This document shows, one piece after another, positions 17,560-56,356 of a DNA stretch of 64,000 nucleotides; position 1 is the stretch's first letter, and each line of letters starts with the position of its first letter. The stretch is from Desulfosudis oleivorans (GTDB lineage: Bacteria; Desulfobacterota; Desulfobacteria; Desulfobacterales; SURF-7), in NCBI GenBank assembly GCA_020723325.1, contig DYJD01000020.1:62001-126000 (forward strand), given 5' to 3'. The notes under the pieces are model-generated. The model saw nothing but the letters and a program-made list of their open reading frames with translations, did not search any database and had not been told where the DNA came from. The position numbers and the translations under genes were made by a program.

Positions 17560-17560
17560 A

Positions 17561-22698: not shown

Positions 22699-22726
22699 GT
22701 AGGGGCGGTTCACGAACCGCCCCTAC
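22699..22726. repeat. R1 palindrome with one changed base
   Basis: GTAGGGGCGGTTCACGAACC then GCCCCTAC: the centre is TTCACGAA rather than TTCGCGAA. Confidence 0.85.
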
Positions 22727-22788
22727 ACCCGTGCCCGACATGCAAGCCGTCCCCTGAATGTGAATCACCCCGCGCGCCCATGTGGACA

Positions 22789-24084: not shown

Positions 24085-24340
24085 CTCCGGATAATCCCGC
24101 TTCTATTTCCTCGATGCTTGGCAAGCTGGATTTCAGGTTTTCAGGCAGGGACTGGGTCAATTGATATTGGGAAACACCGATAGGTTTATGGATATCGCTC
24201 AGCGAATGCGAAACAGCTTGTTTCGCAATTTGCTTGTTTGCACCGGTAAAGTGCTTCTTTTGCCGGATCAGCTCCTGGTCGCTCTCAGAAAAACACGCTT
24301 TATCGTCAGCATCCGATTGAATAATACCCGTTGTTACCAT
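24071..24340 (-). pseudogene. C-terminal remnant of a YhcG/DUF1016 PDDEXK nuclease gene
   Basis: The 89-residue frame begins at an ATG overlapping the hsdM stop (ATGGTAA) and ends inside hsdS. Its last ~40 residues (IHKPIGVSQYQLTQSLPENL, KSSLPSIEEIEAGL) read like the extreme C-terminus of YhcG-type (DUF1016) proteins, which commonly sit between hsdM and hsdS. The nuclease core is absent. It may be a deletion product still translated to keep coupling between hsdM and hsdS, or a short gene with its own role. Confidence 0.5.
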
Positions 24341-26751
24341 GCATACCCCATCTTTTTCAGGTGTGCGTTGACCTTCTTCTCCATCGCACTGACCTCTGTC
24401 GTCTGCATGGGCAAGGGTGTTTCATAGCGCTCTGCCAGGTCTTTGATCCGTTGGGTAAGGCGCTGGCTGATGCGATCCATTTCGGTGTGAATATTTTTCT
24501 CAATCGCCGCCATCCATTTGTCATCCACCACCAGGGTTTTGATTTCGTCAACCGAGAGCTTGGGATATTGGGAATACACCTTTTGATCCAGGCCGGTATT
24601 GGCTTCCTTGATGGATTTGGTCATATCGGATTGTTTGGCGGTCAAATCCAGATAGGTTTTAAGGACCTTGACCTCCTCCTTATATTCCTGAGAAGAATCT
24701 TGTTTCATGGCCTTCAATTCTTTGAGCCGGTTTTGCACATTGGCCTTGTTCACCTTTTCCAGCTCAGCGAAAAAACCATCCTCGCCGCTGTGTTCCTCTT
24801 CCAGTTCGGTGATCTGACTGGAGATGGCTTCATTTTCAGCCTCCATGGTTTCGATGAGCTGTTTTTCCTTGGCAAAATAGCGTTTGATCACCAGTTCCTT
24901 GGGAATCAAGTCGCAGGTCCAGCCCTTGTCCACTTCCTTGCCCTTGTTGTTCTTTTGTAGGATGCGATAGGTTGTGGCCTTCCAACCGTCTTCGGCGATC
25001 AGGTAACAGTCATCCTGCATCACCTCATCCCAATAATTCATGAGGTGTTGGTACACATCATATTTGTCGATCAACCGCTTATCGGCATATTGGGCCAGCA
25101 GGTTTTCCGAAAGCTCGACAATCAATTCTTTCGGCTTCAAGCCGGCCTGGACTTCCTTCAACCGGCGAACGCTTTTTTTACGCCACTTGTCGAAAACCGC
25201 GTTCATTTCTTTTGAATAGGCCTCAAACTCAGGATGCTGAAAGATGGTTTGCTTGATGGCATCTTTGCCGATTTTTAAATGGACGTATTGGGGCCGATTG
25301 CTTTTTCCAAAGAGCGCGGTTATAAGGCTCGGGTATACCGTCCAGTAATGGCCCAACGCCTCTATATCAGCTTTGGGTATGTCCCCCAACAAATGGGCTT
25401 CGATATCCTGGAGATCCTCCGGTTCCTGGTTGTCGATGTACCGGGGGATGTTCAGGTTGTATTCATTCTGTTCGATCTGGGCATAGGGGATCATTTTGGA
25501 GTATCGGTCGATCTCGATTTGTTTGTTGAAGGTGTCGACGATTTTGTGGATATCCATGCTGCGCAGACGGTTTTTATTGCCGTCCTTCATGAACCCTTTG
25601 CTGGCATCGATCATGAAAATGCCCTTGCGGTTGTGAGCGTTTTCCTTGTCGAGTACGATGATGCAGGCTGGAATGCCCGTGCCGTAAAAGAGGTTGGCGG
25701 GCAGACCGATGATGCCTTTGATATAGCCCTTGCGGATGAGATTCATGCGGATTTCTGCTTCGGCATTGCCCCGGAACAAAACGCCATGGGGCAGGATGCA
25801 GGCGCCTTTGCCCTTGCTTTTCAGGGACCGGATGATGTGGAGCAGATAGGCGTAATCCCCGTTTTTGGCCGGGGGAATGCCGTAACCCGTAAACCGGCCG
25901 TGAACATCCCCAACCGGGTCCACCCCATTGCCCCAGCGTTTGTCACTGAAAGGTGGATTGGCAACCACATAATCAAAGCTTTTCAATACCCCCTGTTCGT
26001 TCAGGAAAAGGGGGTTGGCCAATGTATTCCCCTGTTTGATTTCCGCAGTGGGATTGTCATGCAGGATCATGTTCATTCTGGCCAGGCCGGCAGTGGCGGA
26101 GTCTTTTTCCTGACCATAGATGGTAACCTCATTACCCGCCTCATCCGCGACCTTCAAGAGCAGGGAGCCCGAACCAGCCGTGGGATCGTATACGGTGGTA
26201 GATGCGGTTGCGTTTTTACTGCTGATCCCGATTATCTTGGCGATGATCCGGCTGACTTCGGCCGGCGTGTAAAACTGGCCCTTGCTCTTGCCGCTCTCGG
26301 TGGCGAAATGGCGCATCAGATATTCATAGGCATCCCCCAGGATATCATCGCCCTCGGCCCGGTTCTTGCTGAAGTCCAGGGCTTTGTTTTCAAAAATGGC
26401 GATCAGGTTGGAAAGCCGGTCCACCATTTCCTTGCCGCTGCCGAGCTTGGTCACATCGTTGAAATCCGGCATGTCGGACAATTTGTTGGCATCGGCAATG
26501 GGAGCGATGATTTTCTTGTTGATATCGTCGCCGATGGTGGGTTTCCCCTTGAGAGCCACCATACCCTTAAAGCCTGAGCCTTTTGGAATGGTTATGGGGG
26601 CGTACCGAACACCGTCATATTTATCACTGATGTATTTCAGGAACAGCATCACCAGCACATAATCCTTATATTGGCTGGCATCCATTCCACCCCGTAATTC
26701 ATCGCAGCTTGACCACAGAGAACTGTATAATTCCGACTTTTTCAATGCCAT
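24334..26751 (-). CDS. hsdM: Type I restriction-modification methyltransferase subunit
   Basis: 805 residues, longer than a typical ~500-residue HsdM because of a coiled C-terminal extension (about residues 520-800, rich in Glu and Lys). The N-terminal HsdM helical domain is followed by FYTPAEVSRIIAKII (about 160), TVYDPTAGSGSLLLK (SAM motif I) and NPPF (motif IV, about 265), the adenine-N6 methylation signature. It is the first gene of the minus-strand R-M operon. A SAM-dependent complex with HsdS protects host DNA. Confidence 0.93.
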   Translation of the reverse strand: MALKKSELYSSLWSSCDELRGGMDASQYKDYVLVMLFLKYISDKYDGVRYAPITIPKGSGFKGMVALKGKPTIGDDINKKIIAPIADANKLSDMPDFNDVTKLGSGKEMVDRLSNLIAIFENKALDFSKNRAEGDDILGDAYEYLMRHFATESGKSKGQFYTPAEVSRIIAKIIGISSKNATASTTVYDPTAGSGSLLLKVADEAGNEVTIYGQEKDSATAGLARMNMILHDNPTAEIKQGNTLANPLFLNEQGVLKSFDYVVANPPFSDKRWGNGVDPVGDVHGRFTGYGIPPAKNGDYAYLLHIIRSLKSKGKGACILPHGVLFRGNAEAEIRMNLIRKGYIKGIIGLPANLFYGTGIPACIIVLDKENAHNRKGIFMIDASKGFMKDGNKNRLRSMDIHKIVDTFNKQIEIDRYSKMIPYAQIEQNEYNLNIPRYIDNQEPEDLQDIEAHLLGDIPKADIEALGHYWTVYPSLITALFGKSNRPQYVHLKIGKDAIKQTIFQHPEFEAYSKEMNAVFDKWRKKSVRRLKEVQAGLKPKELIVELSENLLAQYADKRLIDKYDVYQHLMNYWDEVMQDDCYLIAEDGWKATTYRILQKNNKGKEVDKGWTCDLIPKELVIKRYFAKEKQLIETMEAENEAISSQITELEEEHSGEDGFFAELEKVNKANVQNRLKELKAMKQDSSQEYKEEVKVLKTYLDLTAKQSDMTKSIKEANTGLDQKVYSQYPKLSVDEIKTLVVDDKWMAAIEKNIHTEMDRISQRLTQRIKDLAERYETPLPMQTTEVSAMEKKVNAHLKKMGYAW

Positions 26752-34161: not shown

Positions 34162-36272
34162 AAGACCTGCATGCATTATTGGTCAGGCAGCTCAAACGCC
34201 ATTTGGGCGACCCGGCTCTGCTTCCAAAAGTATGGAAAGGTTTTATCGAAACCGTCAACGATGCCTACCGGGAATTTGATGAGGATCGTTACATGTTGGA
34301 GCGCTCCCTGGAACTGAGCTCCCAGGAGTTGCTCCAGTCCAACTCGGAAATGCGGGCGATCATCAAGGCTTTTCCAGACCTGTTTCTGTGGATCGACCGG
34401 GAAGGGAGGATTCTCGACTGCAAGGAAGGCAGTTCCACCAACCTGTTCATTCCCGCCCACCAATTGGTAGGGAAGCGCATTCAAAACATTCCGGATAAAA
34501 CCATTGCCGAAAAGTTCCACCAGGCCATCCAATTGGTCCGGAAGGAACGCGCCATGTTCAGCCTGGAATACTCCCTCACCCTGAATGACAAGCAATATTA
34601 CTATGAGGCCCGGGTTTTACCGCTGCTGGAAGACCAATGCCTGTGCATCGTCCGCAACATCACTGAAAGACAAGAGGCCGAGGAGGCCCTCAAGCAGAGC
34701 GAGGAGCAGTTCAAAAAACTCTATGAGGAATCCAGAAAGGCGGAAGAAGTCTACCGCTCCCTGATCCATTCTTCCGCCGATGCCATAGTAATGTATGATT
34801 TGGAAGGCAATGTCAGATATCTCAGCCCGGCTTTTACCCAATTATTCGGCTGGGACCAGCCGGAATTGGAAGGGAAGAAAATCCCATTCATACCGGAATC
34901 CGAAAAGGAGGCCACCTTTTTTCTCATTACGGAAGTCGTGCACAAAGGCAAGCCCGTCCACGGCTTTGAGAGCCGGCGCCTTACCAAGGACGGCCGCATT
35001 CTGAATGTCAGTGTCAGTGCTTCCCGCTTTGACGATCATGCCGGCCGGCCCTCCGGAACCCTGGTCATCCTGCGGGACATCACCGAGAAAAAACGCCTGG
35101 AAGCCCATTTCCGCCAGACCCAGAAAATGGAATCCATCGGCACCCTGGCCGGCGGAATCGCCCACGATTTTAACAATCTGCTGTCCGCCATCATGGGCTA
35201 TGCGGAAATGTGCCTGGCCGAGGCCCCCAAGGGCGGCAAGATGGAAAGACGCTTGAGCCGGGTCATGCAGGCCAGTGAGCGCGCCAAGGATCTGGTCAAT
35301 CAAATCCTGACCTTCAGCCGGCAAAAGGAGCAGACCCGCAAACCCTTGCAGATCCGGCCCATTATCAAGGAGGCCCTGAAGCTGCTGCGCGCCTCCATTC
35401 CCTCCACCATCCGCTTTCAAATCGATATCACCGAAGATACCGGCGTCATTCTGGCGGATCCGACCCAGATCCATCAGGTGCTCATGAATTTATGCACCAA
35501 CGCGGCCCATGCCATGCAGGAAAAAGGCGGGACCCTGACTATCAGCATTACCGATACCGCCATTCCCAAGGAAAGCCTCTCGGTTCATGCGGATTTGGCA
35601 GCCGGCGAATACGTGAAACTGACCGTGTCCGATACCGGCCACGGCATGACCACGGATATATTGGAAAAAATTTTCGATCCCTATTTCACCACCAAAAAAC
35701 ACGGGGAGGGCACCGGCCTGGGGCTTTCCCTTGTGCACGGAATTGTCAAGAGCATGGACGGCGCCATCCGTGTAACCAGCACGCCGGCTCAAGGTTCGAC
35801 TTTTGAGGTATTCATTCCACGCCTGGAAAGCGACCGGGAGGATTCGCCACCCCCCACGGAAGACATTCTGCTCTTCGGCAACGAGACGATCCTGCTGGTG
35901 GATGATGAGGATTTTGTACTGGATATGACCCGGGAAATGCTGGAAAGTCTCGGCTATACAGTGGTCCCGCGGGCCAGCAGCCTGGAGGCCCTGCATGCCT
36001 TTCGCGCCAATCCCAAACGCTTTGACCTGGTCATTTCCGATCAAATGATGCCCAATATGACCGGTCAGGAATTGGCCGCCAATATCCACGCCTTGAATCC
36101 ACGTATTCCCTTCATCCTTTGTACCGGTTTCAGCACGCCCATCACCGAGGAAAAAGCCCGCAATTCCGGTGTGACGGCCTTTGTCTACAAACCTGTTCTG
36201 AAGCAGAACCTGTCCGCCGCCATCCGGAGGGTTTTGGATGTTGCCGACAGCAGTCGGGACAATAGCATATAA
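34158..36272 (+). CDS. Hybrid histidine kinase (PAS-PAS-HisKA-HATPase-REC)
   Basis: 704 residues. Two PAS domains (about 65-175 and 195-310), HisKA with GIAHDFNNLLSAIMGY (His336), HATPase with NLCTNAAHAM, SDTGHGM and GTGLGLSLVHGIV, and a C-terminal receiver with LVISDQMMP (Asp628) and LLVDDEDF. Soluble, with no transmembrane helix, so it senses an internal or protein-borne signal. No DNA-binding partner lies nearby, so phosphotransfer must go to a distant regulator. It overlaps the FIST gene by four bases. Confidence 0.93.
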   Translation: MKDLHALLVRQLKRHLGDPALLPKVWKGFIETVNDAYREFDEDRYMLERSLELSSQELLQSNSEMRAIIKAFPDLFLWIDREGRILDCKEGSSTNLFIPAHQLVGKRIQNIPDKTIAEKFHQAIQLVRKERAMFSLEYSLTLNDKQYYYEARVLPLLEDQCLCIVRNITERQEAEEALKQSEEQFKKLYEESRKAEEVYRSLIHSSADAIVMYDLEGNVRYLSPAFTQLFGWDQPELEGKKIPFIPESEKEATFFLITEVVHKGKPVHGFESRRLTKDGRILNVSVSASRFDDHAGRPSGTLVILRDITEKKRLEAHFRQTQKMESIGTLAGGIAHDFNNLLSAIMGYAEMCLAEAPKGGKMERRLSRVMQASERAKDLVNQILTFSRQKEQTRKPLQIRPIIKEALKLLRASIPSTIRFQIDITEDTGVILADPTQIHQVLMNLCTNAAHAMQEKGGTLTISITDTAIPKESLSVHADLAAGEYVKLTVSDTGHGMTTDILEKIFDPYFTTKKHGEGTGLGLSLVHGIVKSMDGAIRVTSTPAQGSTFEVFIPRLESDREDSPPPTEDILLFGNETILLVDDEDFVLDMTREMLESLGYTVVPRASSLEALHAFRANPKRFDLVISDQMMPNMTGQELAANIHALNPRIPFILCTGFSTPITEEKARNSGVTAFVYKPVLKQNLSAAIRRVLDVADSSRDNSI

Positions 36273-36402
36273 ATATATTCAATTTCAATTGACACCGCTC
36301 CGGATTTTGGGCATACTTTCGGGCACACAAAAAGCGTTCCTAATCGTTTCCCTAAGCAACAAGCCTTTCCTGTTTTTTTACCCCACATCATGGAGAATTC
36401 CT

Positions 36403-36927
36403 ATGGAAAAAAAAGACAAAGTCAAAGCCGAAGAAGTAAAGGACCAGAAGGAAGAACAAACCGAAGAAAAACTCAATCCCGATGATATCGTTAAAAAGCA
36501 TGTGATCGGGGCCATGGCCGTGGGTCTGGTGCCCCTGCCCGTGGTGGACTTGATGGCTTTGACCGGGGTGCAATTGAACATGTTGCGCAAGCTCACCAAG
36601 TCCTATAATGTGCCCTTTCTGCAGGACAAGGTGAAGAATATTCTGGCCACATTGATCGGCGGGGGCCTGCCCGTGGCTGTATCGGGCATTTTCACCAGTC
36701 TTGTGAAAAGCATTCCGGTCATCGGGCAAACCACCGGAGCCTTGGTCATGCCGGCATTATCCGGTGCTTCCACTTATGCGGTGGGCAAGGTGTTTATCCA
36801 GCACTTCGAGTCCGGCGGAACCTTTTTGAATTTCAACCCGGAAAAGGTCAAGGACTATTATGAGGCCATGTTTAAAGAAGGGCAGCAGGTTGTGTCCAAT
36901 TTAAAAACCAAGGAAGAGTCCAAATAA
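36403..36927 (+). CDS. YcjF-like (DUF697) membrane protein
   Basis: The start is the ATG at 36403 (MEKKDKVKAEE) behind TGGAGA. The frame upstream to 36238 runs into the kinase gene and is not used. 174 residues: a charged, coiled N-terminus, then a DUF697-type core (GAMAVGLVPLPVVDLMALTG; LRKLTKSYNVPFLQDKVKNI) with two hydrophobic stretches (about residues 30-50 and 85-115). It is followed after nine bases by an SPFH gene. YcjF/SPFH pairs suggest membrane-domain organisation. It is the first gene of the pLGIC operon. Confidence 0.8.
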   Translation: MEKKDKVKAEEVKDQKEEQTEEKLNPDDIVKKHVIGAMAVGLVPLPVVDLMALTGVQLNMLRKLTKSYNVPFLQDKVKNILATLIGGGLPVAVSGIFTSLVKSIPVIGQTTGALVMPALSGASTYAVGKVFIQHFESGGTFLNFNPEKVKDYYEAMFKEGQQVVSNLKTKEESK

Positions 36928-36936: not shown

Positions 36937-37812
36937 ATGATGAATAAAATTCGAGAAAAATTATATCGCAATCTTCCGGCGTTCATCATACCCACCATCC
37001 TTTTTGTATTTATATGCATTTACTTGTTCAATCGGATATTCATCATCATCCATGCCGGCGAGGCCGGGGTCATGTATCGGCTGTTCTTCGGCGGTACGGT
37101 GGTGGATAAGGTCTACGCTGAAGGATTCTATCTGAACTGGCCCTGGGACACGATGAATATCTACAATGTCAGGGTTCAGCAAATCGCCCATGAATTCGAT
37201 GTGTTGACCAAAAACGGCCTGAAGATCAAGTTGCATATCTCCATTCGTTATTATCCGGAGTACAAGCTGCTGGGGGTGTTGCACCAGAAGGTCGGACCCG
37301 ATTATGCCAACGTGGTGGTCATTCCGGAAATCGAGCAGGTATTGCGCCTGATCATCGGTCAGATGGATGCCGAGGAGGTGTATACCACCGGGCGGTCCAT
37401 TATAGAGAAATCCCTGAACGACGCCACGGAGCAGATCGCCCAGCGTTTTATCATCGTGGACAATGTGATTGTTAAGAAAACGACCCTGCCGGAACAGGTG
37501 GAGAAGGCCATCCAAAATAAGATCGAAGAAAAGCACATCGCCGATGCCCATACTTACAAAGTCGAAAGGGAAAAGAAGGAGGCGGAGCGCAAGCGCATTG
37601 AAGCCAACATGATGAAGGAGTACAATGATATCGTCAACTCCTCCATTACGGAAAAGATTTTAAAATGGGAAGGGATTCAAGCCACCCTGGAACTCAGCAA
37701 GTCCCAGAACTCAAAGGTGGTCATCATCGGCAGCGGCAAGGAAGGCTTTCCCGTGATCGGCAATTTCGTTCTCAATGAAGGCGATGAAAAAAGTCCCATC
37801 CTTAACAAGTAA
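36937..37812 (+). CDS. SPFH/prohibitin-like membrane protein
   Basis: 291 residues. One N-terminal transmembrane helix (about 15-38) and a band-7 domain (about 40-190: AGEAGVMYRLFFGGTVVDKV, GLKIKLHISIRYYPEYKLLG). A coiled tail rich in Glu and Lys (about 195-250, VEREKKEAERKRIEANMMKE) should oligomerise. SPFH proteins build large rings that organise membrane domains and proteases. It overlaps the next gene by 38 bases, indicating tight coupling with the binding-protein fusion. Confidence 0.9.
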   Translation: MMNKIREKLYRNLPAFIIPTILFVFICIYLFNRIFIIIHAGEAGVMYRLFFGGTVVDKVYAEGFYLNWPWDTMNIYNVRVQQIAHEFDVLTKNGLKIKLHISIRYYPEYKLLGVLHQKVGPDYANVVVIPEIEQVLRLIIGQMDAEEVYTTGRSIIEKSLNDATEQIAQRFIIVDNVIVKKTTLPEQVEKAIQNKIEEKHIADAHTYKVEREKKEAERKRIEANMMKEYNDIVNSSITEKILKWEGIQATLELSKSQNSKVVIIGSGKEGFPVIGNFVLNEGDEKSPILNK

Positions 37813-40549
37813 ACAGGGCCTTTTGCGGCATGCCAAGGGGTGGGCGGCGATTGCCCTGTTTTTCGTGACGGTATTCAGCGCCTGCACGGCGGATGACAGC
37901 CGGCAAAGCCGGCGTTCCAGGCGGCTGGCCGACCAGAAGGACGACATTGTCATTGCCTGTGTGGATTCCTCTTCAGCCCCGAGTTTTTTCAAAGAAGGCG
38001 TAGCCATGGCCGTGGAGGAAATCAACCTGCGCGGCGGCGTGCTGGATCGCAAGCTCAAAATGCGTTTTTTTGATGATGAAGGCGATGAAAGCAAGGGCGG
38101 ACAGGTGGCCCGCGCCATAGCGGATGACGACAACATGGTTGCCGTGATTGGCCACCGCTATTCCAATGTGGCCATCCCGGCCTCCATCACCTATGAGCAA
38201 AACGGCATCCTGTTTATTTCACCCGGAGCCACCCATCCCAGTCTGACACGCTACAGCAAGGATTTCACCTTTCGCAACATCCCCTCGGATGATGAGACCG
38301 GCCGGCAGATCGCGGATTTCCTCAGCCGCAAGCAATACAAGCACATGGTTATTTTTTATCAGCGGGATTTTGAGGGCAAGCGCCTGGCTGAAATCCTGAA
38401 CGAACTGGCAGTGGAAAAGGGGATCAACATTGTTTCCAAACGTTCTTTTTTCGAGTGGCAGGACGATTTCAAGACAGAGCTTTCCATTGTCAAAAAAGAA
38501 CTCCGGTTTGACGCGGTGTTTGTGGCCGGCAGTCTTCCGGCTTCCGCCATCCTGATCAAGCAGGCCCGGGACATGGGGCTTTCCGCGCCCATCATCGGCG
38601 GGTCCGGCCTGGACTCCCCCATGCTGATTTCCGAAGCCGGCCGGGCCGCGGAAGGCACCGTGGTTTCCACGGTGTTCAACCCCAAAAGCACGGAAAAGAA
38701 CACCCGGGATTTCATCAATCGATTTGAGGAAAAATTCGGATTCCAGCCCGACACCTGGGCGGCCCAGGGCTATGATGCGGTGGTCCTGCTGGAGCACGTG
38801 ATGGAATCCAGTTCCTCCACGGTTCCCATCATTCTTTCCTCCACCCTGAAATTTCTGGAAAGATGGAACGGCGTGACCGGCTCTTATTCCTTTACCCGGG
38901 ACGGTAATATCGTCGGCAAGACCATTTTTTTCAAGGAAGTGAAAAACGGCAAATTTGATTTTCTGAAAACGGAAAAGGAAAGCGAGGTCGACCCCTATAT
39001 TTATGTGGATGAGTTCACCTTGCGCCTCCCCCTGGAGGGGGCCGTGCCCACCATTGATCCGGGCTTTTGCTATGAATCAACTTCCATTGAAGTGGTTGAG
39101 CAATTGTTCATGGGATTGACCTCTTTTGATCCGGTGAGCTATAACGCCGTGCCGGAGCTGGCAAGCAGTTGGGTCGCGGCCGACAACGGCTTGACCTATC
39201 GTTTCAATTTGCGCCGGAATGCGCTCTGGACCGACGGCCGGCCGGTGACGGCCCACGACGTGGTCTTTGCCGTTCAGCGCAATGCCGGGCCGGCGACCAA
39301 GGCCCCCAATGCCCAGATGCTGTATCTTGTGAAAAACGCCAAGGCCTTTAACCAGGGTGAGCTTAAGGACCCGGCCCAGATCGGCGTGCGCGCCCTGGAT
39401 GATCATACCGTGGAATTCACCCTGGAAAATCCCGCGGCCTTTTTTCCCAGTATTGCCGGCGTGCCCATATTCCGTCCGCTGCCGCGGCAAAGCCTTGAGA
39501 AATACGGTCCCAAATGGACCGAGCCGGAAAATATCGTCACCAACGGTTCCTATAAGGTGGCCCTCTGGAAAAAGGATATGGTCATGGTGCTCAAGAAGAA
39601 CCCGGACTATTTTGCGGCGGATAAGGTGTCCATACCGGAAGTGCGCTATCTCATCATTCCCCGGAGTTCCCTGGGCTTTGCCATGTACAAGAACAATGAG
39701 CTGGATGTCATGGGCAGCAGTTATTTGCGCCTGCCCATGGGCAACCTGGCCCGCATTCAAGAAGATCCCGCCTTGAAACCGGAATATCATCGCGAGCCCC
39801 AGTCCTGCACCTATGCCTATGCCTTCAACATCAAAAAGCCGCCGGTGGATAATCCCAAGGTGCGCATGGCCATCGCCGCCGCAATACCCAAGCGTCTGAT
39901 CATTGAGATCATCAGCCGGGGCGGCGAGGAAACAGCCAACACCTATACCCCCTGGCCCTTGTTCGGCGCCGTTGACCCGGCCGAAGGCGTGGGCATCGGC
40001 TTCAACCCCACCAAGGCCCGGCAATGGCTGAGCGAGGCCGGCTATCCCAACGGCGAAAAATTTCCGGAACTGGTGCTGCTGTATAATACTTCCGAAACCC
40101 ATAAAAAAATCGCCGAGGCTGTCCAGGCCGCCCTGAAGCACAATCTGAACATCCAACTGCGGCTGGTGGAAAACGAATGGGACCAGTTCATGGCCAGCAT
40201 CACCCGGCCCGGGGAATTTCATCTGTTCCGGGCCGGGTATTGCAGCGATTATCCGGATGCCAACAATTGGCTCAATGATTTGTTCCATCCCTCCCGGCCC
40301 ATGATGTATACCGGCCTGGACAACCCGGAGTTGGCGGCGGTGTTGGACCAATCCCAGGCCGAGGGCGATCTGGAAAAGCGCAAGGCTTTGTTCAAGCGCG
40401 CCGAGCGCATCCTGTGCGAGGAGGAGACGGCCCTGGTTCCGATCTATTTTGAAAAAGCCCATTGCCTGGTAAAGCCGCGGGTAAAGGGCTGGTATCATAT
40501 GGCCATGGGCGGGCAGCATATCCGCAACTGGTATTTTGAGGAGAAATAG
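37775..40549 (+). CDS. Lipoprotein fusing a LivJ-type and an OppA-type solute-binding domain
   Basis: 924 residues. Start at 37775 or 37784; neither has a good ribosome site, so translation is probably coupled to the SPFH gene. Signal with lipobox VTVFSAC (Cys37). Residues about 57-395 form a type I periplasmic binding domain of the LivJ/Peripla_BP_6 kind (VAMAVEEINLRGGVLDRKLK, AVIGHRYSNVAIPA, WAAQGYDAVV). Residues about 410-915 form a type II SBP_bac_5 (OppA/DppA) domain (YESTSIEVVEQLFMGLTSFD, YRFNLRRNALWTDGRPVTAH, GSYKVALWKKD). No ABC permease or ATPase gene is present. The two domains belong to different binding-protein classes. It probably presents or detects amino-acid or peptide ligands for the channels that follow. 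Confidence 0.88.
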   Translation: MKAMKKVPSLTSKQGLLRHAKGWAAIALFFVTVFSACTADDSRQSRRSRRLADQKDDIVIACVDSSSAPSFFKEGVAMAVEEINLRGGVLDRKLKMRFFDDEGDESKGGQVARAIADDDNMVAVIGHRYSNVAIPASITYEQNGILFISPGATHPSLTRYSKDFTFRNIPSDDETGRQIADFLSRKQYKHMVIFYQRDFEGKRLAEILNELAVEKGINIVSKRSFFEWQDDFKTELSIVKKELRFDAVFVAGSLPASAILIKQARDMGLSAPIIGGSGLDSPMLISEAGRAAEGTVVSTVFNPKSTEKNTRDFINRFEEKFGFQPDTWAAQGYDAVVLLEHVMESSSSTVPIILSSTLKFLERWNGVTGSYSFTRDGNIVGKTIFFKEVKNGKFDFLKTEKESEVDPYIYVDEFTLRLPLEGAVPTIDPGFCYESTSIEVVEQLFMGLTSFDPVSYNAVPELASSWVAADNGLTYRFNLRRNALWTDGRPVTAHDVVFAVQRNAGPATKAPNAQMLYLVKNAKAFNQGELKDPAQIGVRALDDHTVEFTLENPAAFFPSIAGVPIFRPLPRQSLEKYGPKWTEPENIVTNGSYKVALWKKDMVMVLKKNPDYFAADKVSIPEVRYLIIPRSSLGFAMYKNNELDVMGSSYLRLPMGNLARIQEDPALKPEYHREPQSCTYAYAFNIKKPPVDNPKVRMAIAAAIPKRLIIEIISRGGEETANTYTPWPLFGAVDPAEGVGIGFNPTKARQWLSEAGYPNGEKFPELVLLYNTSETHKKIAEAVQAALKHNLNIQLRLVENEWDQFMASITRPGEFHLFRAGYCSDYPDANNWLNDLFHPSRPMMYTGLDNPELAAVLDQSQAEGDLEKRKALFKRAERILCEEETALVPIYFEKAHCLVKPRVKGWYHMAMGGQHIRNWYFEEK

Positions 40550-40555
40550 GGCGGC

Positions 40556-42751
40556 ATGAAGATCAGACTCGCCATGATGGTTTCCCTGGTGCTCGGCAGC
40601 ATCATTCTCCTCCCGGCCCTGGCCTTTCGGATGTTTCCCATGCAGCCCGAACCCCATTATATCGCCGTGGTGGGGCCCTTGAGCGGGGAAGACCGCGTCA
40701 GCGGCTTGGCCATGCAGAAGGGCATCCAACTGTGTCTGGAACGGGCCAAACGGCAAGGCCGGTTGAAAAATAAAAGGATCGAGCTGGTATATTTCAATGA
40801 CCAGAACGATCGCCGCACGGCCTTGAAAATCGCTGCCCAGATCACCAAGGATGACCGCATCTTGTGTGTGTTGGGGCATTTTTACAGCACCAGCGCCGAA
40901 GTGGCCGGCGCCATGTACCGCCGCAGCGGCATCCCGGCCATCACGGCTTCCGCCGGCGGCGACAGCCTGACCACGGTGAACGATTGGTATTTCCGGACCA
41001 TCCCGGACAATCGCTCCATGACCCGCTTCACCGTGAGTTATATCCGCAAGGTCTTGAAGCAGAACCGGGTCAGCCTGATCTTTGACAAAGGCGATTACGG
41101 CGCGGCCCTGGCCGGTGATTTCATGGAAGCGGCCCGGGAATTGAACATGGAGATCCTCTATCAATGGAGTTTTGACCAGGAGGCCAAGGAAAGCCAGCGG
41201 CAGTTGAACGGGATCATCACGGAATTGCGCACCGTCAAGGAGCCCGGGGTGCTCTATTTCGCCACCCAGGCGCCCGAGGCGGCGCAAATTCTTTCCGCGG
41301 TCAGGTATCAGGGCACGGATTATACGGTGGTGGGACCGGACACCTTTTGCAACCGGGCGTTTATCGAGCTTTTCAACCGCTATCCCGGCGAGCGCCGAGC
41401 CAAAGGCTATTTCACCGATGGTATCTATGCCGTTGCCCCGTTCCTGCCGGAAATGGGCGGCAAGACAACCCATGATTTCATCCATGAGTACCAAGGGCTT
41501 TACGGCGAGAAGCCGTCCTGGGTGGCCTGCTGCTATTACGACGCCATGCTGATGGCCATCAACGCCATTGAAAAAAGCGATCTTGAGGCCGGTTTCGGTA
41601 TTCAGAAAATCAGGCGGACCCTGCGGGACCGCCTGGCCGGGTATACGAGCGCGGACATTGCCGTGGACGGGGTCACGGGCAAACTCTATTTTGACCGCAA
41701 CCGCAACATGAAAAGGCCGCTGCATCTGGGGTATTATCAAAAACAGGAATTTATTCCGTTTTTTTCCCAATACACCTCCCTGGAAGGGGATCAGCAGCCC
41801 CAGAAAAAGCGCATCAAGGAGAAGATCGCGGACAAGGTGGTGTTGATCGACAACCAGTTTCACACGGATACCCAGATTGTCTATGTGGGCTTTGACATCA
41901 ATTCCATCGGCAATATGGACATGGAAAAGCAGACCTTCACCCTGGATTTTTATCTCTGGTTCCGTTTTCAGGGGGCCTTTGAGGAGGAGAAGATGATCTT
42001 CCCGGATGCCTTAACCCCCGTGCGCCTGGAGAATCCCATCATCCGGGAGGCGGGCCCGGACAGCACCGTCCAGACCTATCACATCAAGGCGGATTTCAAA
42101 GGGGATTTCAATCCGCGCGACTACCCCTTTGATGTGGAAACCCTGCGCATCCGTTTTTACGATAAAAGCCGCTCCAGAAACAAAATGATCTACCTGCCCG
42201 ACATCCTGCAGCCGGCCTCTGGGGCTTTGCCGGACCAGGAACCGCTGCCTTCAACAGCAGGCTGGCAAGTGGCCGGCGTGTCCTGTTATGAGGCCATCAA
42301 GGATATTGCCTTTTCCGAGAAGGTCTCCATTCCCTATTCCCAATTCAATGTGGCAGTGGCCCTCCAGCGAACCGACCGGATGGGTTCGGCTTTAAAACTG
42401 CTGCTGCCCCTTGGGGCGCTTACGGCCCTGTTGTTTTTTTCCCATTATCTGCCGCCGGATTCCCTGTCCCGGCGCGGTCTGATTTATGCCGGCATTGCTG
42501 CCGCCGCCGGCATGTATCACCTGCATCTACACCAGCGCTTTCCAGGCAAAGGGCTGGATATCGAGCATGTTTATTATGTGGTTTATGGCCTGCTGGTCTG
42601 GGCCGCCGCCATTTCCGCCATCGGGTATGGAGCCGGCCGAATGGGCCTGGGCCCGCAGAAGATCCAACGCCTGCAACAATTGGGTAAAATCGGCTATCCG
42701 ATTATTTTACTGATCGGCTGTTTATCGGTATTTTTCATTGCAAACGGGTGA
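40556..42751 (+). CDS. Pentameric ligand-gated ion channel homologue with N-terminal LivJ-type binding domain
   Basis: 731 residues. An N-terminal signal or anchor (1-25), then a LivJ-type binding domain (about 34-400: IAVVGPLSGEDRVSGLAMQK, VLGHFYSTSAEVAGAMYRRS). Residues about 438-605 align by eye with the extracellular domain of prokaryotic pLGICs such as GLIC, including DFNPRDYPFDVETLRIRF, which covers the Pro-loop (YPFD at 523-526). Four helices follow: M1 about 610-632, M2 639-660, M3 668-692 and M4 710-729 (GKIGYPIILLIGCLSVFF, like the GLIC C-terminus). The M2 start has SRRGLIYAG, with basic residues where GLIC has a Glu. Seven bases after the fusion lipoprotein gene. Likely a ligand-gated channel or a non-conducting receptor. 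Confidence 0.85.
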   Translation: MKIRLAMMVSLVLGSIILLPALAFRMFPMQPEPHYIAVVGPLSGEDRVSGLAMQKGIQLCLERAKRQGRLKNKRIELVYFNDQNDRRTALKIAAQITKDDRILCVLGHFYSTSAEVAGAMYRRSGIPAITASAGGDSLTTVNDWYFRTIPDNRSMTRFTVSYIRKVLKQNRVSLIFDKGDYGAALAGDFMEAARELNMEILYQWSFDQEAKESQRQLNGIITELRTVKEPGVLYFATQAPEAAQILSAVRYQGTDYTVVGPDTFCNRAFIELFNRYPGERRAKGYFTDGIYAVAPFLPEMGGKTTHDFIHEYQGLYGEKPSWVACCYYDAMLMAINAIEKSDLEAGFGIQKIRRTLRDRLAGYTSADIAVDGVTGKLYFDRNRNMKRPLHLGYYQKQEFIPFFSQYTSLEGDQQPQKKRIKEKIADKVVLIDNQFHTDTQIVYVGFDINSIGNMDMEKQTFTLDFYLWFRFQGAFEEEKMIFPDALTPVRLENPIIREAGPDSTVQTYHIKADFKGDFNPRDYPFDVETLRIRFYDKSRSRNKMIYLPDILQPASGALPDQEPLPSTAGWQVAGVSCYEAIKDIAFSEKVSIPYSQFNVAVALQRTDRMGSALKLLLPLGALTALLFFSHYLPPDSLSRRGLIYAGIAAAAGMYHLHLHQRFPGKGLDIEHVYYVVYGLLVWAAAISAIGYGAGRMGLGPQKIQRLQQLGKIGYPIILLIGCLSVFFIANG

Positions 42752-48543: not shown

Positions 48544-49410
48544 TTATTCGAAATCGAATTCCAGACCGAATTCGGCCGAGAGCTGCCGGCACATCACTTC
48601 CATGCGCTGGTTTTGTTCTGCCGTGAAATGGTTCTGCCAATCCCCCACCCGGCCCTTGCGCAAGGGCCGGCTGTCGGCATCGGCGCGCCAGGCGGCCCAG
48701 GAAAGATTGGTTTTGGGGCTTTGGGCCATCTGGTCAAAGGTCGTCATGGGCAGGATGGCCGTGAGCAATTCCGGACCCATGTCCACCCCCAGGAAGCACG
48801 CCACTTTTGCGGCAATGCCGGCCGGGTCGCGATGCAGGTCTTCATATTTCAGGAACAGAATATTGGTGGACGTGCGGCTTTGCCGCCACCATTGGGATAC
48901 GTGTTCCGACCATTTCCCATAAATCAGCCCGCCGCTGATGAAAAGCGTCACAAAATCCTCCCAGGTGCCTTGATAGGCGATGCGATAATTATTGCCCATG
49001 AAATAGTACAAGGAGACCGCGCAATCCTTGGGATTGCGGGCCACATAGATGAATTTGGCCGCAGGATTGCGCCGGTACAACTGAAAGGTGAAGGGCAGAT
49101 GGGTCTTGAAAAACCGGCGCGTCTTGATCTGTTCAAAGGGGGCAAGGCCGTTGAAGGCCGCGGCCCTTTCCAGATAAGGGATCACCACCTCCAGATGTTC
49201 ATCGCCCTGAATACCGCGGCAGGTAAGCAGATGGACGATTTGCTGCATCCAGGTGGTTCCGGAGCGCGGATAGGTGGTGATGAAGACATCGTCATCCCGC
49301 ACGGTGAATTCCCGCAAAATGCCGTCGATCACCGCCTGGGTCATGAAAAAGGGCAACTTGAAGGGATTGCCCAGTGGATCAGTCACAATGGTATGGGTGA
49401 AGGTGCTCAT
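48544..49410 (-). CDS. Sulfotransferase (family 1, PAPS-dependent)
   Basis: The start is the ATG at 49410 (MSTFTHTIVTDPLG), overlapping the upstream radical SAM stop by four bases; 288 residues. TYPRSGTTWMQQIVHLL (5'-phosphosulfate loop) and IYVARNPKDCAVSLYYF (3'-phosphate site) are both intact. The family moves sulfate from PAPS to alcohols or amines of small molecules and lipids. Position in a row with two radical SAM enzymes and the exporter suggests it sulfates the cluster's metabolite. Confidence 0.9.
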   Translation of the reverse strand: MSTFTHTIVTDPLGNPFKLPFFMTQAVIDGILREFTVRDDDVFITTYPRSGTTWMQQIVHLLTCRGIQGDEHLEVVIPYLERAAAFNGLAPFEQIKTRRFFKTHLPFTFQLYRRNPAAKFIYVARNPKDCAVSLYYFMGNNYRIAYQGTWEDFVTLFISGGLIYGKWSEHVSQWWRQSRTSTNILFLKYEDLHRDPAGIAAKVACFLGVDMGPELLTAILPMTTFDQMAQSPKTNLSWAAWRADADSRPLRKGRVGDWQNHFTAEQNQRMEVMCRQLSAEFGLEFDFE

Positions 49411-50816
49411 GGCCGCATAGATCCGCCGGCTGCCGGGCCGAACAGTTTTGAAAATTTGCTTTTCAGCTCCCAAAACGGGCCTTTCACACCCCTTTTGCGC
49501 ATTCTCTTCAAAAAGTCCAGGGGAATTTCATTGGGCATGCCGCCGTAAATGAAATTGGGATGGGTGCGGGCGAATTCCTGGATCACCGGAACCAGGTCGG
49601 CATGCAGGTCCTTGGAAATGTAAAAGCGGGGTTCCAGATGATTACCCAGGTCATAGCCTTCTTTAAGGGCGATACGTTCCATCTCGGTGTCGGGATAGAT
49701 GCGGATGCCGCTGTAGGCAATGACGGCATCCGGAGCCGTTGCTTCCATCACGGCAAAGGTTTCCGTCAGGGTGTGCAGATTTTCGCCCGGGCCGCCCAGG
49801 ATCAGGCAACAGCAGGTGTTCAACCCGGCTTTTTTGCAGCAATCCATGGCCGCTATGATGTGGGTGGTCCCGAAACCTTTTTGCAACTGCTCCAGGATTT
49901 CATCCGCGGCTGAATCAATCCCCAGTTCCACGCCGGAACAGCCGGCCTTGGATAGAAGTTCGGCAAAATCCGGGGTGATGAAGCGGGGATGAAAAAAACC
50001 GGTCCACTGGATTTTCAGGCCTTTTTGCAGGATGCCGCGGCAGATGGCCACGGCGTGTTCCATGGGGTAGTTGAAGACATTGTCCACAAAACAGAAGGAA
50101 TCAAGGCCGTATTGCTTGTTCAACTGCTCAAGCTCCGCCACCACACCGGCCGGGTTGCGCAACCGGACGGTGCGGCCCTCGATCAGGGGATAGGTACAGT
50201 AAATACAATTGAAATGACAGCCGCGTTTGGATTGAATGCTGGTAATGCCGCCCTCGGCCACATAGCGTTCCACATCCAGGAATTCCCGGGCCGGGAGCCG
50301 CTGGTCCAGGTCGGCCGGCAGCCGGCGCGCATTGACTTGAATCACGCCGTTGTTTTGAAAAACCAGGCCGCTGATGGAGCCGATCGACTTGCCCAGGGCG
50401 AGATGATCCAGCAGTTCGCCGACCACGCCCTCGCCTTCGCCCACCACTCCCATTTCCAGATCCAGATAGGCAAGGATTTCCCTGGGGGCAATGGAAAAGC
50501 CGGAACCGCCCACGATCATGTGGGCCTTGCTGCGGGTTTTGCAAAAGGCGATGACCTCTTGAATACGCGGCAAGTAATAAATGGATTCCGGATAGGAGGT
50601 GGAATCAATGTTGCGGATGGAAAAGAGCAGGGCTTCCGGGGCCTGGGTTTGCAAATGAGAGCCCAGCAAGGCCTGATAATCATCGCTGAAGCACAAATCC
50701 AGCATTTTGACTTCATGGCCGTTTTTTACAAGGGCGCCGGCGATATAGGCCAGCCCGATGGGCTGCACCGGATAGGGATACTTTTCTTGATTCAGGGCGA
50801 TTAAGGTTATTCTCAT
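49407..50816 (-). CDS. B12-binding radical SAM protein
   Basis: 469 residues. N-terminal cobalamin-binding fold (YPVQPIGLAYIAGALVKNGH, MIVGGSGFSIAPREIL, MGVVGEGEGVVGELLDHL), then a radical SAM barrel with CHFNCIYC (CX3CX2C, about residue 200). ELGIDSAADEILEQLQKGFG follows. The family performs methylations and skeletal changes on sp3 carbons. It is 27 bases downstream of another radical SAM gene on the same strand. The substrate is unknown. Confidence 0.88.
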   Translation of the reverse strand: MRITLIALNQEKYPYPVQPIGLAYIAGALVKNGHEVKMLDLCFSDDYQALLGSHLQTQAPEALLFSIRNIDSTSYPESIYYLPRIQEVIAFCKTRSKAHMIVGGSGFSIAPREILAYLDLEMGVVGEGEGVVGELLDHLALGKSIGSISGLVFQNNGVIQVNARRLPADLDQRLPAREFLDVERYVAEGGITSIQSKRGCHFNCIYCTYPLIEGRTVRLRNPAGVVAELEQLNKQYGLDSFCFVDNVFNYPMEHAVAICRGILQKGLKIQWTGFFHPRFITPDFAELLSKAGCSGVELGIDSAADEILEQLQKGFGTTHIIAAMDCCKKAGLNTCCCLILGGPGENLHTLTETFAVMEATAPDAVIAYSGIRIYPDTEMERIALKEGYDLGNHLEPRFYISKDLHADLVPVIQEFARTHPNFIYGGMPNEIPLDFLKRMRKRGVKGPFWELKSKFSKLFGPAAGGSMRP

Positions 50817-50843
50817 GGGCGCGTGGTCTTTTCCTTGGGATGG

Positions 50844-52718
50844 TCAGGAGATTCTCCATAAGGGTGAATTCAACTCAAAATAATTGGGCAAGTCGCGCAT
50901 GGTGCGATACACCAGGTCCGGGTTGGTGCTAATCCCGCGGGGATCTTCAACAATAAACTCCACAGGCCCCGCAAAGGTCTTCAGGGAGCGGGGCCCGGCG
51001 CCGTTTTCCTCCTGATGGTAAAAGGCCGTAAAATCATACGGCAGGGTCACGGCGGTCCGCGGATTGTAGCGGGAGGGCAGAATGCTTTTCTGGACCAGGA
51101 TCACGGTTCGGATCAACTCCGGGTCGAGGCCGAGGTTCTCCGTGAGGATCGCCGCCGTTTCCCGGTAGAATTGATCCCACAGGTTCCCGCTTTCCATAAA
51201 AAGATAAACATCCCGGGCATTGTCCTTGATGTCCCTAAAAATTTTCCTTTCAAAAAAATCCGCAAGACCATTGCCCAGCCGCTCCAGGACGGCTGCCAGC
51301 ACCGGATAGCGACGGCGGCTCTCCGGTTCGGCCGTTTCCTCCTGCCCGGCACCGATGAGCAATTCCAGTACCTGGCTGGGATTTGCGGCGCATTCCAGCG
51401 CGGCAAAATAGACCAGATATTTAAGCGTGCGATAGCCAAAGGCCAGGCTGGTGAACATGCACAGCAATAGGACTCGCCTGTATTCATCACGGCTGAAGGA
51501 GCTGGTTTGGACGATCAGTTCCCAATTCCCGTCGGCGCTGGTCTGGAGCTCGGTTTCAATTTGGAATTGCCGGCGGTATTCCGGTTCATCCATGCGGCTG
51601 TTGGGCAGGATCATGGTGGTAAAAATCATGGGATACATCTTTTCACGGATGATGTAGTCCACGTCATGCTTGAAAGAAGCATAGGTGGAGCCCGGCAGGC
51701 CGATCATGAATTGGGCCGCCACTGGCAGATGCTGCCGGATGTATTCCTCCCGCACCTGTTTGAAGTAATCCATGGCGATGGGCTTGCGGGTGATGTTTTT
51801 CAACGTCTGCTCATCCAGGGTTTGGACGGCCAGGACCAGGTTGGTGACGATTTGCGAGGAGATCAAGCGCCGGCTGATTTCAATGGAGCGCTCGGCATTG
51901 TTGCCGTGTATAAGGATGGCGTTCTTGGGAAAGCCGTAGCGGTCCTTTACTTTGCAGATCTGCTCGGCAATGGCGATATCCTGTTCCAGGATGCCGAAGT
52001 TGGCATCGGCAATAAACAGGGAGGTGACCTGATGTTTGCCGATCCACTCCAGTTCCGCAAAAACCCGGTTGAGGTCCTGCCTGACGATTTTGGCCAGATC
52101 CATGTTCCAGGAGCAGAAAGCGCATTTAAACGGGCAGCCCCGGTTGGTCTCCAGCACGGCCAGATCCAGGTCCGGCAGGAGCGCATCAAAAACGCCCTCC
52201 AGGAAAGGAGATGGGATGAGGGTCATATCCGTTAACGCTTCCCGGGATTCCGTCATCCGGATTTCCCGGCCGTGGCGGTAGGAAATGCCCTTGACGGCCT
52301 GGTAGTTCTTTTCCGTCAGGATCTGGGTGATCAGCTCCAGGGCGCTGAATTCCCCCTCGCGGTGAACCAGGAAATCGATGTAGGGGTATTGTTCCAAAAA
52401 GGAGCTGTTCTTGTAAGGCACATAGGGCCCGCCGTGGATGATGATGTGCTCCGGATTGCGGGCTTTCAATTCCCGGCTGAGGGCAAGGTGGGCGCGGATG
52501 TTCCAGGGGTAATCGGACATGAGGAAAACAGCGGGCTCGTTGAATCCGCTGAGCCATGACTCCTCCTTGACAAGACCGGAATCCCGGATCCAGGAAAAAC
52601 GCATGGCCGCCGCCAATTCCGGTCGGTATTTTTGCAGCATGGCCGTAATGTATCCCAGCGCCAGGGGGGTATGCTTGTATTGATGCAGATGAACGCAACC
52701 AACATGGATTTTCGGCAT
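50844..52718 (-). CDS. B12-binding-type radical SAM protein (paralogue of the 54449 gene)
   Basis: 624 residues. The N-terminal region (PLALGYITAMLQKYRPELAA, AVFLMSDYPWNIRAHLALSR, IIIHGGPYVPY) is cobalamin-binding-like. CPFKCAFC (CX3CX2C, about residue 195) and SLFIADANFGILEQDIAIAE follow. The last ~250 residues are an all-helical extension of unknown role, ending NYFELNSPLW. The 54449 gene on the opposite strand ends NNFELDSPLW and matches throughout, so the two arose by duplication. Confidence 0.88.
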   Translation of the reverse strand: MPKIHVGCVHLHQYKHTPLALGYITAMLQKYRPELAAAMRFSWIRDSGLVKEESWLSGFNEPAVFLMSDYPWNIRAHLALSRELKARNPEHIIIHGGPYVPYKNSSFLEQYPYIDFLVHREGEFSALELITQILTEKNYQAVKGISYRHGREIRMTESREALTDMTLIPSPFLEGVFDALLPDLDLAVLETNRGCPFKCAFCSWNMDLAKIVRQDLNRVFAELEWIGKHQVTSLFIADANFGILEQDIAIAEQICKVKDRYGFPKNAILIHGNNAERSIEISRRLISSQIVTNLVLAVQTLDEQTLKNITRKPIAMDYFKQVREEYIRQHLPVAAQFMIGLPGSTYASFKHDVDYIIREKMYPMIFTTMILPNSRMDEPEYRRQFQIETELQTSADGNWELIVQTSSFSRDEYRRVLLLCMFTSLAFGYRTLKYLVYFAALECAANPSQVLELLIGAGQEETAEPESRRRYPVLAAVLERLGNGLADFFERKIFRDIKDNARDVYLFMESGNLWDQFYRETAAILTENLGLDPELIRTVILVQKSILPSRYNPRTAVTLPYDFTAFYHQEENGAGPRSLKTFAGPVEFIVEDPRGISTNPDLVYRTMRDLPNYFELNSPLWRIS

Positions 52719-52747
52719 CCTGTCTCCCTCGCCTGCTGCCGGCGCTG

Positions 52748-53929
52748 CTATGAAATTGAGGGCGCCGGAATCAAGCCGTTTTTTTGAAAATAGGTAAGGT
52801 ACGTGGAAATGATTTTCGCATCCGTGGGCGGACAGACCACCTCGTTGCCGAGGCCTGCCCGGCTGTTTTGGGATTCAAAGCGCATCTGTTGCAAGAGCAA
52901 ATTGTTTGAGTCCCGCAAAAACAAGGCTAAAAAGGAGTAAATCTTTTCCTGGGGCTGCCGGGCCGCCAATTGCTCCAATTCAAGGACCCAATGGTCGTAA
53001 GGGATTTCCTGCAGGGGATATCCCAGGGAATTGAGCTCCTGCAAAAAGCTTTTGTAGGAAACAGGGGCCGGGTTGCATAAATGAAAAATCCGGCCGAGGG
53101 AGCGCTCCTGCAGGGACAGATGCACCACGGCCTCGGCCACATAATCCGCCGGCAGATATTCGATCAGGGTGTCCAGGCGTGGATATTTCCCCAGGGCGAT
53201 GCAGGCTTTGATCAAATGGCAAAGGGTATCCTTGAAATCCATGATACCGGTTTTGCTGCTGCCCAGAATCCGCACCGGCCGATAAACAACGGCCGGCAGG
53301 CCGCGCTCCCGGGCGTTCAAGACAAGCTGCTCCGCCACCCATTTGCTTTGCTTGTATCCGCCTTTCAAGGTTTCGTCACATTGGGGCGGATCATTTTCAG
53401 CGGCAACCCCGCGCTGGAAATGGGTTCGGCTGAAGAAGACCGCCACGGTGGAAATGAAATGCAAGGGTTTGAGCCGGCTGCGGGCCGCAAGCCGGATGAC
53501 TTCCTGAGTTCCGAGAACATTGGCGGCTTTCAAGGCGGAATAGGGGTAGAGGAAATTGACCAAGGCCCCGTTGTGATAGATGCTGTCGACTTTCGTGGCC
53601 AGGGAGGTAAAAAGCGCTTCGGTCAGGCCCAGCAACGGTTTGGAAAGGTCACCCGCCACGGGAAAAAGCCGGGGCTCGAATTCCTCCTGCCACAGGGCAT
53701 GCAGGACCAGATGGTCTTTCAGGCGCCGCATACCTTCGGCCTGGTCCCCACAGCGCATGAGGCAATAGATATCGGCTTTGGTCCTGTGCAACAGGGCCTT
53801 CAACAAATAAGGCCCCACCAGCCCGGTGGCACCGGTGAGCAGGATTGCTTCGGGATTCGACGCCGGCTTTAGTGGTGGGCCTTGAAATAAAATCGCCGTA
53901 TCCAGGACCTTGTCTGCTTGTAAATCCAT
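52748..53929 (-). CDS. Stand-alone thioester reductase (NAD(P)-dependent)
   Basis: The start is the ATG at 53929 behind GGGAGGAAT; the longer frame to 54049 translates the R3 repeat and is rejected. 393 residues. Rossmann motif LLTGATGLVGPYLLKALL, then STVAVFFS and the catalytic-type YKQSKWVAE (YxxxK), and YRPVRILGSSKTG. This is the Lys2/NRPS-terminal reductase type, which releases carrier-bound acyl groups as aldehydes or alcohols. It leads the minus-strand arm. With the ACP and AMP ligase of the other arm it suggests reductive release of a carrier-bound product. Confidence 0.85.
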   Translation of the reverse strand: MDLQADKVLDTAILFQGPPLKPASNPEAILLTGATGLVGPYLLKALLHRTKADIYCLMRCGDQAEGMRRLKDHLVLHALWQEEFEPRLFPVAGDLSKPLLGLTEALFTSLATKVDSIYHNGALVNFLYPYSALKAANVLGTQEVIRLAARSRLKPLHFISTVAVFFSRTHFQRGVAAENDPPQCDETLKGGYKQSKWVAEQLVLNARERGLPAVVYRPVRILGSSKTGIMDFKDTLCHLIKACIALGKYPRLDTLIEYLPADYVAEAVVHLSLQERSLGRIFHLCNPAPVSYKSFLQELNSLGYPLQEIPYDHWVLELEQLAARQPQEKIYSFLALFLRDSNNLLLQQMRFESQNSRAGLGNEVVCPPTDAKIISTYLTYFQKNGLIPAPSIS

Positions 53930-53960
53930 GATATTCCTCCCCAGGGGAATGGTATTTGGT

Positions 53961-54045
53961 TTTTTCGGGGTCGGTATCGGGGTCGGAATCGGAATCGATA
54001 AAAACAATTCGACCCCGATACCGATAGCGACCCCGACCCCGAAAA
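53961..54045. repeat. R3 inverted-repeat pair between divergent operons
   Basis: TTTTTCGGGGTCGGTATCGG with further GGTCGGAATCGG on the left; CGACCCCGATACCGATAGCG and ACCCCGACCCCGAAAA on the right (54009-54045), with about ten bases between. Related to 2918-3088. It lies in the divergent promoter gap and could form a cruciform or hairpin. Confidence 0.75.
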
Positions 54046-54170
54046 TCAAATGCGATGGCTCTGTATTCCCCCCAATGCCCCTTGACTATGAAAAGCCGTT
54101 TTGCTATCTATGCCCAAGCATCATCAAGCTAATCCACTCCGCCCTTCCTGATATTCCGAAGGAGATCCCC

Positions 54171-54446
54171 ATGACCCGGACCGACGTTTTCCGGATCCAT
54201 TTAAATCCGAATAAAACACTGCCCCTGGCCCTTGGAAACATGACTGCCATGGTGGCAAGGCACAGGCCGCATTTGTTGGATGTTTTGAATCTGGATACTC
54301 CCATTTTAACCGATCGTTTGCATGTGGAACAGATGGTTAGGTCAGGTGGATTTTCCAAGACGGCAATCTTTTTGATGTCGGACTATGTGTGGTATATACA
54401 GGCTCACACCGCATTGAGTCAAGCATTTCTCCAACCAAAGGAGTAA
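54171..54446 (+). pseudogene. Truncated N-terminal copy of the following radical SAM gene
   Basis: The 91-residue frame starts at the ATG at 54171 behind GGAG and matches the beginning of the next gene: DVFRIHLNPNKTLPLALGNM against DVYRVHLNSNKIIPLALGNM, and IFLMSDYVWYIQAHTALSQA against IFLMSDYVWNLQAHTRLSRA. It then stops after six unrelated residues (FLQPKE). The cobalamin and radical SAM core is missing, so it is a duplication scar or leader fragment. Its stop lies just before the ATG at 54449. Confidence 0.75.
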
Positions 54447-54448
54447 AA

Positions 54449-56335: not shown

Positions 56336-56356
56336 ACACCGTTCGGGTGGTTCACC

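Follow-up and report, generated by a model that had tools for sequence, protein, structure and literature searches.

A conserved lipoprotein with LivJ-type and OppA-type binding domains is encoded beside predicted ligand-gated channels and may serve as their sensor subunit

The question raised by this locus is whether one protein can genuinely carry two unrelated classes of solute-binding domain, and which partner such a protein would serve. The locus lies in a 64,000-nucleotide stretch of Desulfosudis oleivorans DNA (contig DYJD01000020.1; the whole stretch is referred to as the window), in which a single gene encodes a lipoprotein joining a type I (LivJ-type; PBP-I) domain to a type II (OppA-type) domain, hereafter the fusion. 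In our study, the two-domain fusion is found to be genuine and conserved, and its partnership with the PBP-I-bearing pentameric ligand-gated channels (PBP-I::pLGIC) encoded directly after it is well supported by gene order. On balance, and with some reserve, we regard it as probably a lipid-anchored periplasmic sensor subunit of these channels.

The frame at 37775-40549 of the forward strand runs through 924 codons with no internal stop. The domain search against Pfam-A placed Peripla_BP_6 (PF13458) first, at residues 72-392 (E 2.3e-38; 133.2 bits against a cut-off of 31.7), and SBP_bac_5 (PF00496) second, at residues 458-840 (E 5.6e-78; 263.1 bits against 32.4). The best sequence relatives in the PDB were OppA over residues 424-920 and the LivJ-type structure 4mlc over 65-397. 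A frameshift or missed stop near 38990-39000, which would mean two separate genes, was looked for and none was found; it is refuted by the open frame and by independent homologues in which the joint is also in frame. These were aligned at 35-56% identity, two of them being full length at 56%, and a further homologue, at 75% identity, lies against a contig edge and begins within its first domain. The survey of genomes for the same domain order returned 33 copies with the joint in frame, from 19 genomes and 14 family-level groups of one order, which is Desulfobacterales judging by a named relative (JAGVHJ010000369.1). The copy numbers are lower bounds, as the first-look filter scored two to five candidates per genome; a strict contig scan with patterns built from one sequence returned one relative. 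No fusion was found outside the order at E 1e-150 in a phylum-wide sample of 395 genomes, where weaker or unsampled copies may exist. A sequencing or assembly error joining two neighbouring genes might be suspected from the fragmented assemblies and from the split versions beside some channels, but the same in-frame joint recurs in the 33 copies at 35-75% identity and each half traces to one clade, and this explanation is given practically no weight. Hence the original prediction of two unrelated binding-protein classes on one chain is borne out across the family.

The AlphaFold2 model of the fusion, made from a 13-sequence alignment, showed two globular parts and a low-confidence linker (predicted local distance difference test, pLDDT, 76.9; predicted template modelling score, pTM, 0.48), with the confidence low at residues 400-407 and 415-418. 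The N-terminal half was found to have the type I periplasmic binding fold on comparison with 3td9 (VIA-align; Z 44.0, root mean square deviation 2.1, 338 residues aligned). Searches with the whole fusion are dominated by single domains; VIA listed the LivJ half only and Foldseek matched both OppA and LivJ-type structures. The model of the OppA half agreed with OppA more poorly than the N-terminal half did with its match (deviation near 7 over about 500 columns in Foldseek), and its assignment therefore rests on sequence. Translation may start at ATG 37775 or at ATG 37784, and with either codon the frame begins before the SPFH gene has ended. From its signal peptide and lipobox cysteine the fusion is predicted to be a bacterial lipoprotein, and it is probably acylated.

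Possible ligands were approached through the binding-site residues in 32 aligned fusions. Ser130 and Thr153 of the fusion align with LivJ Ser79 and Thr102, positions which anchor the backbone of the amino-acid ligand in LivJ-type proteins; the first is Ser in 28 of the 32 fusions and the second Thr or Ser in 26. The position of LivJ Glu226 is variable (Asp in 10, Asn in 6, Ser in 4, others in the rest), as would be expected if the ligands differ between paralogues. In case of the OppA half, Cys678, Cys823 and Asp825 align with OppA Cys271, Cys417 and Asp419. Asp419, which in OppA holds the peptide N-terminus, is matched by Asp in 23/32 fusions and by Glu in 3. The equivalents of Cys271 and Cys417, a disulphide pair in OppA, are kept or lost jointly (both in 16 fusions, neither in 15, mixed in 1; 31/32 together, P 6e-8). 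With the binding residues largely retained, most copies therefore have the build of working binding proteins, though key residues are lost in some. Since most copies keep the LivJ-type Ser/Thr pair and the equivalent of Asp419, the fusion may plausibly integrate signals from amino acids and peptides, as suggested earlier.

The gene neighbourhood gives the clearest indication of a partner. The cassette in the window has the order DUF697, SPFH, fusion, channel 1 and channel 2, followed by a tandem ABC (ATP-binding cassette) exporter on the opposite strand (Table 1); the SPFH and fusion genes overlap by 38 bp and a gap of 6 bp separates the fusion from channel 1. An SPFH gene is directly upstream in 27 of the 33 fusion copies (32 loci and the window), the other six comprising four copies at contig edges, the second copy of a tandem pair and a rearranged locus (L038). 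One or two PBP-I::pLGIC genes are present on the same stretch in 29/33 copies, usually directly downstream. Three of the other four copies (L037, L081 and L087) are on contigs of 4.6-5.8 kb, and in the fourth (L085) the same contig carries two channels farther downstream, at distances of about 11 and 17 kb. Moreover, a full PBP-I::pLGIC is carried by 18/19 fusion genomes against 7/370 others (Fisher P 2e-24, ancestry not corrected), and in the sole fusion genome without one the sequence stops 137 bp past the fusion. The proposed position of the protein beside channels is thus confirmed in the window and holds across the family. A 928-aa open frame opposite the fusion and channel genes (39077-41863, reverse strand) is most likely a coding-strand shadow.

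Table 1. Features of the cassette, with window coordinates
Feature	Coordinates	Strand	Basis
DUF697 membrane protein	36238..36927	+	PF05128 E 2e-11; recurs in fusion loci
SPFH / Band 7 membrane protein	36937..37812	+	PF01145 E 6e-25
Fusion lipoprotein PBP-I::OppA, 924 aa	37775..40549	+	single open frame, two Pfam domains, AlphaFold model m1450c578823c
Lipobox Cys37, predicted acylation site	37883..37885	+	FSA/C; column nearly invariant among 13 aligned fusions
Type I (LivJ / Peripla_BP_6) domain, residues 56-398	37940..38968	+	Pfam, fold match to 3td9
Type II (OppA / SBP_bac_5) domain, residues 416-921	39020..40537	+	Pfam, Foldseek, aligned residues
Predicted PBP-I::pentameric ligand-gated channel 1, 731 aa	40556..42751	+	profile to ELIC/GLIC, AlphaFold model
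Predicted PBP-I::pentameric ligand-gated channel 2, 743 aa	42748..44979	+	overlaps channel 1 by 4 bp
Tandem cyclic-peptide export ABC half-transporters, 1122 aa	45165..48533	-	TIGR01194, two stretches, whole-protein E 4e-179

Channel 1 is predicted to contain a signal anchor, a LivJ-type domain (residues 32-402), a ligand-binding beta-sandwich (428-605) and four transmembrane helices (608-730), which in its model (m705f3c3d6253; pLDDT 85.4, pTM 0.80) span 608-631, 637-661, 670-695 and 700-730. The channel-family profile matches ELIC/GLIC over the ligand-binding and membrane domains at E 4e-16 to 1e-11 (about 1e-14 for the family profile, 4e-16 for the C-terminal part alone). Direct fold comparison of the C-terminal part with ELIC/GLIC is masked by the binding domain, so the identification of these neighbours as PBP-I::pLGIC channels is drawn from the sequence profile and the predicted secondary structure. 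Such channels are mislabelled by automatic annotation, as single-sequence Pfam finds PF02932 in 2/24 of them and shows the binding domain alone in the other 22/24.

A more ordinary role would be that of a two-domain solute-binding protein for ABC import, with Opp or Liv permeases encoded elsewhere, and both halves indeed retain importer-type folds and most ligand residues. However, when the fusion loci and the window were searched by tblastn with the OppB and OppC-type permeases of a typical opp operon of the same family (L045), nothing matched; permeases may exist elsewhere in the genome. Further, the gene order with the channels is fixed, and the OppA half is far below the cut-off of the NCBI OppA equivalog NF011684 (276.9 against 947 bits). 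An importer operon is hence rejected locally, and import by way of distant permeases appears distinctly improbable. The statement that the two domains normally serve different transporters stands for their relatives and fails here, since no OppB/OppC-type permease is found near any fusion copy and the constant neighbours are the PBP-I::pLGIC and SPFH genes.

The ancestry of the two halves was traced separately. In the tree of OppA-type domains, all channel-linked members, whether fused or split, group in a single clade apart from the ordinary OppA relatives found in this order (support 100/99). Stand-alone OppA-type proteins of this clade adjoin PBP-I::pLGIC genes in L040, L042 and L044, and these split members, together with that of L015, nest within it. 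A single fusion clade is compatible with the OppA-domain data (approximately unbiased test, p 0.425); loss of the N-terminal half and branching before the fusion both fit, and in L095, at a contig edge, such a loss is unreadable. In the tree of LivJ-type domains, the N-terminal halves of the fusions form one clade (Shimodaira-Hasegawa-like approximate likelihood ratio test, SH-aLRT, 94), apart from the LivJ domains of the channels (99). These separate clades rule out that the N-terminal half was copied from the PBP-I domain of the channel, and repeated independent fusion is unneeded as the N-terminal half forms a single clade. Its nearest stand-alone relatives are lipoproteins found either in sets of exporter, SPFH and PBP-I genes (L096, L147 and L148) or next to NHLP-bacteriocin exporters (L047, L149 and L150). 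Stand-alone PBP-I lipoproteins closely related to the N-terminal half adjoin ABC exporter pairs in the latter three loci, where TIGR03797 was confirmed, and in L151.

Peptide export was also found to be linked with the fusion. Fourteen of 37 TIGR01194 loci are within 15 kb of a fusion against 0.39 expected, which is about 35-fold (17 fusion genomes; P 1e-18, simple binomial), and the exporter of the window scores 597 bits against a cut-off of 286 in this family. Nonribosomal peptide synthetase (NRPS) condensation-domain loci are within 20 kb in 5/44 cases against 0.61 expected (P 4e-4; G173 left out), and no such domains were found on the window's own contig; NRPS as a constant fusion neighbour was rejected, these genes being weakly enriched and near a minority of copies. 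The linkage could mean producer protection, in which the fusion and the SPFH protein bind or repel a natural peptide product that is synthesised and exported close by, the channels forming part of a stress response and not being gated by the fusion. Besides the exporter enrichment, this agrees with the stand-alone relatives of the N-terminal half, which occur without a channel in the exporter sets or beside the NHLP exporters named above. The channel is, however, the more constant neighbour (29/33, with exporters near 14 loci), and the pockets diverge among paralogues, which fits the sensing of varied ligands; we consider producer protection unlikely. The window exporter carries two TIGR01194 half-transporters head to tail in a single chain, and similar frames of 1120-1155 aa are present in related genomes.

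For the sensor subunit favoured above, we infer the following mechanism. The OppA half would capture a peptide, whose free N-terminus may be held by Asp825, and the LivJ half would capture an amino-acid-like ligand. The LivJ half probably docks on the channel's own N-terminal domain, also of LivJ type, in the way that type I binding domains of related receptors form pairs, and the ligand-driven closing of either cleft could alter channel opening and hence ion flow, with the SPFH protein probably serving as membrane scaffold of the assembly. In one locus (L144), a stand-alone OppA-type gene is found between two genes for proteins in which a PBP-I domain and a pLGIC-type ligand-binding domain (LBD) are joined to an MscS-type channel (PBP-I::LBD::MscS); this OppA-type protein is a long branch outside the channel-linked clade. 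The arrangement hints that the shared periplasmic part, and not the pore, is the partner. More speculatively, the peptide may leave the cell, or neighbouring cells, by way of the TIGR01194 exporters, in which case the cassette would read a secreted peptide. A complete peptide-signalling system, comprising TIGR01194-type export, the dual PBP-I::OppA receptor, an ion current through the PBP-I-bearing Cys-loop-family channel and an SPFH scaffold, is a tentative proposal, possible and no better than that. Several observations count against the sensor role and its extension. PBP-I::pLGIC channels without a fusion exist (L127-L132), and therefore the fusion is not required for every such channel; the relative placing of the two domains in the model is unreliable at its pTM; and the TIGR01194 exporters are not beside every fusion copy, with NRPS genes near a minority of them.

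Part of this arrangement was already known. Prokaryotic Cys-loop (ART-LGIC) receptors that carry a PBP-I domain at the N-terminus have been reported, with PBP-II genes beside such channels in the same predicted operon and a proposed cooperation in chemoreception (Tasneem et al. 2004, PMC549065). Our cassette shares with these the fused PBP-I channel and an operonic type II binding protein, whereas the operonic protein here is a PBP-I::OppA lipoprotein accompanied by a fixed SPFH gene, frequent DUF697, enriched peptide exporters and often two channel genes. In comparison to SBP_bac_5 proteins (OppA, MppA, DppE), the fold, Asp419 and the Cys pair are at equivalent positions, but the fusion has a second binding domain, no OppB/OppC nearby and a clade apart from same-order OppA relatives. 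LivJ/LivK-type proteins (Peripla_BP_6; 4mlc/4q6b at about 37% identity) share the fold and the Ser/Thr anchor positions; here the domain is the N-terminal half of a larger lipoprotein, with a channel rather than LivHMGF as putative partner. The ionotropic glutamate receptors (NMDA/AMPA) also place a PBP-I and then a PBP-II-class domain in channel control (PMC549065), but this is an analogy only, as OppA is a different type II subfamily of about twice the size, the fusion is a separate lipoprotein and not part of one chain, and the pore family is another. DeCLIC (PMC9897478, PMC12664993) is a pLGIC that comes from the same bacterial group and has an additional module at its N-terminus; unlike ours, this module consists of two jelly-roll lobes and is not a PBP. 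No description of a dual PBP-I::OppA lipoprotein or of its SPFH/exporter linkage was found in the literature searched, subscription papers being outside its scope. The response of PBP-I-bearing prokaryotic Cys-loop channels is, in the sources used, the 2004 prediction of chemoreception, and from a conserved partner that has a peptide-binding domain and is linked to a peptide exporter, the class of ligand can be guessed in a concrete and testable way. If true, a two-class binding protein would control a channel instead of an importer.

Related channel genes were also observed. PBP-I::LBD::MscS proteins (PF00924), of 970-1140 aa, are encoded at L140:3598-6972, L141:4280-7201, L143:3601-6996, L144:1567-4983 and L146:3933-7349; in them, the ligand-binding portion of a Cys-loop-family receptor is combined with another kind of pore, and 4/5 of those scanned have a cyclic-nucleotide-binding domain. 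MscS-family genes adjoin PBP-I::pLGIC genes at L040:3614-4735 and L136:3-3908, and large open reading frames of similar size are located between channels in L080 and L133. GluR0-like channels (SBP_bac_3 and Ion_trans_2) are directly before PBP-I::pLGIC genes at L129:2372-3475 and L137:11730-12809, so that one putative operon combines ligand-gated channels of two kinds. At L033:4237-5825 a channel gene is broken up into two frames, and the second channel next to it is intact. PDB entry 5ere (Desulfohalobium retbaense, "extracellular ligand binding receptor") can be aligned with the channel model across 646 columns, at a poor root mean square deviation of 17.1, and might represent the periplasmic part of a PBP-I::LBD protein.

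Elsewhere in the window, positions 49407-63385 downstream of the cassette hold genes for four radical-SAM enzymes, AMP-binding, fatty-acyl reductase-like, sulfotransferase and sulfatase proteins, followed by two more TIGR01194 exporters; this set, with which L155 6637-9870 was grouped, is possibly a biosynthetic cluster. Positions 15072-26751 of the reverse strand hold the type I restriction-modification genes HsdR, HsdS and HsdM together with a Schlafen/AlbA_2 gene and an AAA_15/AAA_21 ATPase gene.

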